DNA of 64,000 nucleotides, from positions 1 through 64,000 of IMG/VR virus record IMGVR_UViG_3300010401_000005; one strand, given 5' to 3'. Of this stretch, positions 12,912 through 13,082 are shown in pieces; positions within the stretch are counted from its first letter, which is position 1, and each line of letters opens with the position of its first letter. The translations under genes were made by a program, and so were the position numbers. The notes beneath the pieces are model-generated. The model was not told the origin of the DNA. It saw nothing but the letters and a program-made list of their open reading frames with translations, and made no database searches. This stretch comes from a virus.

Positions 12912-13053
12912 CCAATCCCCCTTAGACGAAATTAACCCTTCTGCGGTTAGGTGTCTAGTCCGGTTGCAGAAGGGTTAATAGTGGGGCAAAAATTGGTATG
13001 GGTACCCCACGTTTTGAAATTTTTGTTATTGTGTTACCGAACTAGACGTATTC
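12912..13053 (-). promoter_or_regulatory. Pseudoknotted leader / attenuator-like element A
   Basis: Between promoter and start codon lie, in transcript order: a 12-nt segment (13036-13047), the hairpin GTGGGG/CCCCAC (12981-13010), and a perfect 14-bp stem (12931-12944 with 12966-12979). The 14-bp stem's loop (12953-12964) is complementary to the first segment in 11 of 12 positions. TTTCGTCT and the ribosome site follow. The first segment can pair with the loop before the long stem closes, the geometry of an antiterminator or riboswitch expression platform, or of an H-type pseudoknot. Same order and end motif as leader B (15474-15616). Confidence 0.65.
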
Positions 13054-13082
13054 ATTCTACCCGCAAAAACCTATCCTGTCAA
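13054..13082 (-). promoter_or_regulatory. Sigma-70 promoter for the 12911 gene and helicase
   Basis: On the minus strand TTGACA (13082-13077), a 17-nt spacer and TAGAAT (13059-13054). The predicted start falls at the GTCTA that begins the leader's pairing segment. It overlaps the 3' end of the upstream gene. Confidence 0.8.

Follow-up and report, generated by a model that had tools for sequence, protein, structure and literature searches.

The window, 64 kb of a 70,112-bp IMG/VR record, carries on its minus strand a leader (leader A) flanked on one side by a 119-aa gene (stop at 13071) and on the other by a 291-aa gene (ATG at 12911). The features at this locus are as follows.

13054–13082, minus strand: promoter of leader A, with −35 TTGACA at 13082–13077, a 17-nt spacer and −10 TAGAAT at 13059–13054
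13047–12912, minus strand: leader A as a whole, predicted RNA start at G 13047
13036–13047, minus strand: P1a, GTCTAGTTCGGT, predicted RNA nucleotides 1–12
12981–13010, minus strand: P2, a local hairpin GTGGGGTA...TGCCCCAC
12966–12979, minus strand: P3a, ATTAACCCTTCTGC, the 5′ arm of a 14-bp stem
12953–12964, minus strand: P1b, ACCGGACTAGAC, the partner of P1a, within the 21-nt P3 loop
12931–12944, minus strand: P3b, GCAGAAGGGTTAAT, the 3′ arm
12912–12937, minus strand: U-rich tract TTAATTTCGTCT, which overlaps P3b at its end, followed by SD AAGGGGG and the spacer
12036–12911, minus strand: gene behind leader A, 291 aa, starting at ATG 12911
10218–12032, minus strand: next gene, encoding a RadD-like superfamily 2 helicase

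An earlier note on this DNA had placed the transcript start at GTCTA, and the predicted RNA does begin there, downstream of an 11/12 sigma-70 promoter (TTGACA-17-TAGAAT). The note also held that the first 12 nucleotides complement, at 11 of 12 positions, the loop of a perfect 14-bp hairpin just before the ribosome site of the 291-aa gene. This description is accurate. P1a and P1b form 11 Watson-Crick pairs and one G-U (P1), P3 pairs at 14 of 14 positions around its loop, and 3′ of P3 come the SD, in TTCGTCTAAGGGGG, and then the ATG. For leader A, placement before a helicase operon is likewise right, with the 291-aa gene first and the helicase gene second. The 291-aa protein has no family in Pfam, NCBIfam or PHROG. 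P2 and the U-rich tract after P3 did not figure in the note's description.

Leader B, which the note named without coordinates, lies at 15611–15474 on the minus strand and is built from the same parts.

15617–15646, minus strand: promoter of leader B, TTGATT, an 18-nt spacer and TATACT
15592–15611, minus strand: P1a, TGTCTAAGGGGTACGAAGTA
15554–15576, minus strand: P2, a local hairpin CGTG.CAGGG GAGA CCCTG CGCG
15539–15548, minus strand: P3a, GGCCGCACCC
15519–15537, minus strand: P1b, TACTTCGACTCCTTAGACA, within the 34-nt P3 loop
15495–15504, minus strand: P3b, GGGTGCGGCT
15474–15496, minus strand: U-rich tract TTTATTTCGTCT, which overlaps P3b at its end, with SD GGAGG and the spacer to ATG 15473
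14796–15473, minus strand: gene behind leader B, 225 aa with an acidic C-terminus

In leader B, P1 consists of 19 pairs with one A bulged and P3 of 10 bp. Common to the two leaders are GTCTA at the start, a small hairpin in the middle and ATTTCGTCT ahead of the SD, while the remaining P1 and P3 bases differ and the pairing is kept. A-rich single-stranded linkers are present in both. In each leader, the sequence from the predicted +1 onward is complementary to the loop of P3, a hairpin whose 3′ end immediately precedes the SD of the gene behind it. The 225-aa protein, like the product behind leader A, has no family in Pfam, NCBIfam or PHROG. Candidate leader peptides in A and B were rejected as having no SD, and anti-SD competition by P1b, plausible for B, is not general. 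Pseudomonas phage RVTF4 (L100, 1455–1533) contains GGCCTCCC TTCG GGGAGGC TTTATTTCGTCTGGAGG-ATG, nearly identical to the terminator-SD junction of leader B. There a terminator adjoins the SD with no 5′ partner, and we judged the match coincidental.

The phage appears podovirus-like from its terminase large subunit, a presumed portal (64737–62818) and an SU10-type adaptor. Its terminase is about 35% identical, over most of the protein, to the best IMG/VR match. At the gathering threshold, Rfam 15 finds nothing at the leaders in the window, and elsewhere in it only an int-alpA RNA (RF02996, 40.7 bits; 55725–55799, minus strand), which lies ahead of a 62-aa ORF (55516–55704) and is surrounded by apparent structural genes. 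A 20-nt inverted repeat (95%) at 28875–28942, in a likely divergent promoter region, adjoins an HTH_17 protein (28564–28908, minus strand) and possibly serves lysogeny or excision control. A predicted tRNA-Ile (gat) at 52456–52548 (plus strand) is, at 93 nt, unusually long for its type. The 687-aa protein at 18900–20963 (minus strand; phrog_1735) shares about 50% identity with jumbo Caulobacter phage proteins (phiCbK group) and sits in an otherwise isolated podovirus-like genome.

To judge chance, we scored the architecture as a whole, that is, a promoter, a 5′ end paired with a hairpin loop, and a hairpin just before an SD and start. Leaders A and B are the two top matches in the window, scoring 30.3 and 23.6, against a maximum of 20.9 among 400 dinucleotide-shuffled windows. 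When only the loop was shuffled 300,000 times, with the hairpin and 5′ segment fixed, pairing extended as far from +1 in 8 shuffles for A (12 pairs) and in 35 for B. A hairpin with a 5′ complement is not rare by itself, a P1 equal to that of A occurring in 22 of 160 shuffled windows. What is rare is the full architecture, including promoter, +1 and SD/start. A scan tolerant of defects returned 13 matches of at least 33 in 3.2 Mb of phage DNA (two are second copies of one leader, and two, L058 and L254, were not counted as members) and none in 9.6 Mb of shuffled sequence, where one match reached 31. A scanner using energy only was discarded because it was swamped by GC-rich coding DNA.

The architecture recurs in seven other phage contigs, which hold 11 leaders in addition to A and B. 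The starting sample was the set of IMG/VR loci encoding relatives of a neighbouring 394-aa protein, scanned by architecture only. It was then widened to loci of the methyltransferase found by the first scan and to more of the same contigs, which yielded further members. The additional leaders, by locus, are:

L265: three leaders, +1 at 13066, 11546 and 9772
L275: one leader, +1 at 4179
L210 (= L211): one leader, +1 at 3893
L200 (= L261): one leader, minus strand, +1 at about 8577
L339: two leaders, +1 at 6964 and near 4078, on the same 70-kb contig as L337
L337: one leader, +1 at 17781, on the 70-kb contig shared with L339
L196: one leader, +1 at 12675
L330: one leader, +1 at 5032, on a 58-kb contig

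Member scores run from 33.8 to 51.2, apart from the L339 copy near 4078, which was completed by hand after the scanner had picked a different P1a. Where a genome has several copies they number 2, 3 and 3, three being the maximum. The genes downstream include three MT-A70 methyltransferases, one N6/N4 methyltransferase, a replication protein O, a DnaD/O-like initiator and an HNH protein, together with some unknown genes. The 58-kb contig also encodes a homologue of the helicase, 38% identical. An abiF RNA (RF03085) lies at 7657–7693 (plus strand) of L196, on a contig that carries a leader.

Several candidates were set aside. L058, L242, L236, L254, L193 and L240 were rejected for a weak P1, AT-richness, ambiguous pairing or a wrong offset, and L336, which exceeded 33 in a looser scan, for a poor promoter. 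Two possible variants, not counted, lie on minus strands: in L240 a 13-bp P1 begins 18 nt after a 10/12 promoter, and in L193 a 7-bp P1 begins 22 nt after a 10/12 promoter and precedes a 21-bp stem and TTTTTCG...GGAGG. No leader was accepted at the loci of terminase relatives, and an architecture scan of four cultured phage genomes found none. At 19 MT-A70 methylase genes none was convincing; the leader is therefore not tied to the MT-A70 gene.

Across the 13 leaders, P1a spans 9–20 nt and P3 10–25 bp. Since the member search required pairing, P1 complementarity is not independent evidence; the independent support for the family comes from the null, the anchoring at +1 and the U-tracts. With the P1 start left free over 38 positions, 10 of 11 matches scoring at least 34 begin 3–7 nt after the −10, which is the +1. 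The U-rich tract was not scored by the search, and at least 4 T in 10 nt follow P3 in 11 of 13 leaders (L265a and L339a have no good tract), compared with 19% of 621 low-scoring matches. Past the last G/C of P3b, the mean number of T in 10 nt is 5.1 in the leaders and 2.3 in those matches. The arrangement of an intrinsic terminator, a GC-rich hairpin and then a U-rich tract, is thus found in 11 of the 13, and that of an H-type pseudoknot, a hairpin loop complementary to sequence outside the hairpin, is predicted in A, B and the 11 others.

Leader B and the 11 leaders elsewhere differ in sequence yet retain the pairing (a search criterion), so the interpretation in the earlier note withstands the refutation check that it set. 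Within leaders 117 of 117 P1 cells are paired, compared with 4.7 of 9 across leaders (the pairing itself was selected for), and every P1 position shows 2–5 pair types. These counts were made by script; a MAFFT alignment of the P1 segments slipped register. In L265 the three P1a segments (GTGTCTAGG, TGTTCAGGG and TGGCAAACA) differ widely. Some genomes have P1a starts that are alike, as with TTGTCAGAC and TTGCCAGAC in one contig and GTCTA in A and B. In L265, L275, L210, L200, L337 and L339, P1a often has YAGG/YAGA (TAGG, CAGG, CAGA) within a few nt of +1, with the complement in P1b. This may hint at shared ancestry or at a sequence that is recognised. The linker that follows P1a is also complementary to the segment that follows P1b (P4), with a score of 6 reached in 5 of 13 leaders and in 9 of 156 mismatched pairs, which is suggestive only. 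A P4 helix in several members would give three mutually crossing helices in ABCABC order. Set side by side, the 13 leaders have their geometry in common and no conserved unpaired core. For neither A nor B do the collections hold a close homologue, and the case for the family rests on architecture, nulls and features unused by the search.

P1 crosses P3 and forms first in nested folds, but has no nucleotides in common with the P3 stem. When P1b has just been transcribed, nested folding gives P1 a probability of 0.87–0.99 in all 13 leaders. Once P3b is complete, 22–40 nt later, P3 dominates in 9 and P1 in 4. The energies of the P1 fold and the P3 fold are at most 5 kcal/mol apart in 8 of 13. A pseudoknot is not scorable by nested folding, and coexistence of P1 and P3 was therefore judged from loop lengths only. 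The connecting stretches are 8–15 nt (L3) across a P1 of 9–20 bp and, in some members, 4–13 nt across a long P3, which suggests that full P1 and full P3 together are strained in several members. The earlier note had offered either an H-type pseudoknot or an antiterminator-like switch. Both fit the geometry, and the short connecting loops would favour a folding-order switch over a static pseudoknot.

We put at roughly 0.5 the probability that leaders A and B are members of a family of promoter-linked phage RNA elements that act in cis, as a folding-order switch, on the next gene. During transcription P1 would form first, enclosing P3a, before P3b emerges. Because P1 and full P3 cross, P1 would then hinder the terminator-like P3, and polymerase would read into the gene. 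If P1 failed or were displaced, P3 would form, and transcription would stop or the SD region would become less accessible. Elongation speed, a phage protein at the 5′ end or RNA in trans might tip the balance between these outcomes. A further claim, possible and put forward tentatively, is that this is a new phage RNA family in which the +1 end is threaded into the terminator loop, so that the transcript blocks its own termination topologically and not by competition for stem nucleotides. The suggestion that the element times DNA replication genes appears reasonable if widened to DNA-metabolism genes, since methyltransferase, replication-initiator and HNH genes lie behind other members. Response to a ligand, also proposed, finds no support, there being neither a conserved unpaired core nor an Rfam match.

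The main rival to the switch is that the pairing seals the 5′ end and stabilises the mRNA. The first nucleotides, locked in a stable pseudoknot with the hairpin that precedes the ribosome site, would bar pyrophosphohydrolase and 5′-end-dependent nucleases from early mRNAs. P1 starts at +1 in nearly all strong members and covers the terminal nucleotides, RppH of B. subtilis requires at least two unpaired 5′ nucleotides (PMC3997798), and conservation of geometry, not sequence, is also in its favour. However, a plain 5′ hairpin would suffice, the U-tracts and the pairing with the loop of an SD-abutting hairpin are left unexplained, and P3 beats P1 in nested folds of many members. We consider sealing rather unlikely as the explanation, although it could coexist with attenuation. 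The leader might instead yield a trans-acting attenuated RNA of about 90–150 nt, ended by P3 and with both of its ends sealed. Such an RNA would target other transcripts or feed back on its own gene, as in plasmid attenuation systems or with P4 CI RNA. The leader has its own promoter and a terminator-like end, P1b in the loop could serve as a kissing loop, and P1a starts are alike within some genomes. Yet P1 differs so widely among the copies of one genome (L265) that cross-talk between them would not be expected to be common, neither a separate target nor an antisense promoter was seen, and the elements always precede an SD and start, though the scan demanded that. We regard a trans-acting RNA as improbable.

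A translational operator like that of T4 gene 32, in which a phage protein recognises the shape of the pseudoknot and thereby turns translation down or up, would match the position just 5′ of the ribosome site ahead of DNA-metabolism genes and the A-rich linkers of A and B. The many different genes downstream are ill-suited to simple autogenous control, however, and no conserved unpaired sequence was found, so we give this reading very little weight. Hardly credible is a chance resemblance or an inverted-repeat operator acting at the DNA level. Shuffled sequence does yield the hairpin with its 5′ complement, but the full architecture lies beyond all 400 shuffled windows and the 9.6 Mb of shuffled DNA. 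The copies within one genome, up to three, differ in P1 sequence, and the same repeat was not found at several promoters of one genome, which argues against a shared DNA operator.

Transcription attenuators, whose leaders fold as terminator or antiterminator, resemble the proposed switch, with its promoter, leader, predicted alternative structures and terminator-like hairpin with a U-tract ahead of a gene (PMC7430163). They differ in that the nucleotides of the candidate antiterminator here, P1, all lie outside the terminator stem, and the partner is the transcript's own +1 end; exclusion would be topological, via the loop. SAM-II and preQ1 riboswitches are H-type pseudoknot leaders with crossing helices that end beside the SD. 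The phage leaders are predicted to share this layout, but have a long P1 and P3 and neither a conserved ligand-binding core nor an Rfam match. The put RNAs of HK022, of which each genome has two, are structured RNAs at the start of phage early transcripts and act processively on polymerase. The leaders likewise place a structured RNA at the 5′ end of early-type phage transcripts; put RNAs are not known for pairing between +1 and the loop of a terminator, as proposed for the leaders. The CI RNA of phage P4 and the c4 RNA of P1/P7 are self-complementary leaders that cause premature termination of phage operons and are processed and trans-acting. The leaders are also self-complementary with a terminator-like end, but no separate target was seen for them. 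In T4 and RB69 gene 32 mRNA (PMC535899, PMC3014915), a phage leader pseudoknot, like that predicted here, lies 5′ of the ribosome site of a DNA-metabolism gene, as one autogenous site. Several copies before unrelated genes, a promoter-anchored +1 and a terminator-like P3 set the present leaders apart from it. Stabilising 5′-terminal stem-loops (RppH/RNase E/RNase J dependence; PMC3997798) also pair nucleotides from +1, whereas in A and B the partner lies about 70–80 nt downstream, within the loop of another hairpin.

A permissive Rfam scan of A and B gave chance matches only, and Rfam returned none at the leaders in the six member loci scanned, L196, L200, L210, L261, L265 and L275. Phage sequence searches with A and B found chance matches and no relative, and the exact pattern GTCTA...TAGAC...TTTCGTCT had chance matches only in IMG/VR and GTDB genomes. 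All 48 of 48 IMG/VR matches to TTTATTTCGTCT plus SD were judged chance, apparently in coding sequence. For the 225-aa protein, the 291-aa protein and the helicase, single-sequence scans found no relatives. A limited search of open-access full texts turned up no phage example in which a 5′ end is described as pairing with the loop of a terminator. The leader family looks undescribed. In its presumed mode of action it comes closest to transcription attenuators and pseudoknotted leaders, from which it is set apart by the +1 as partner and the non-overlapping candidate antiterminator.

Known attenuators usually rely on two hairpins that compete for the same nucleotides, while here a strong promoter, a terminator-like hairpin and a start codon stand in line. 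Because geometry and not sequence is conserved, such elements are missed by sequence searches and Rfam, and more may be hidden. If 5′-end sealing were true, the leaders would be a new kind of mRNA stabiliser. If antitermination by topology were true, they would provide compact, protein-free control over the output of phage methylation and replication genes.
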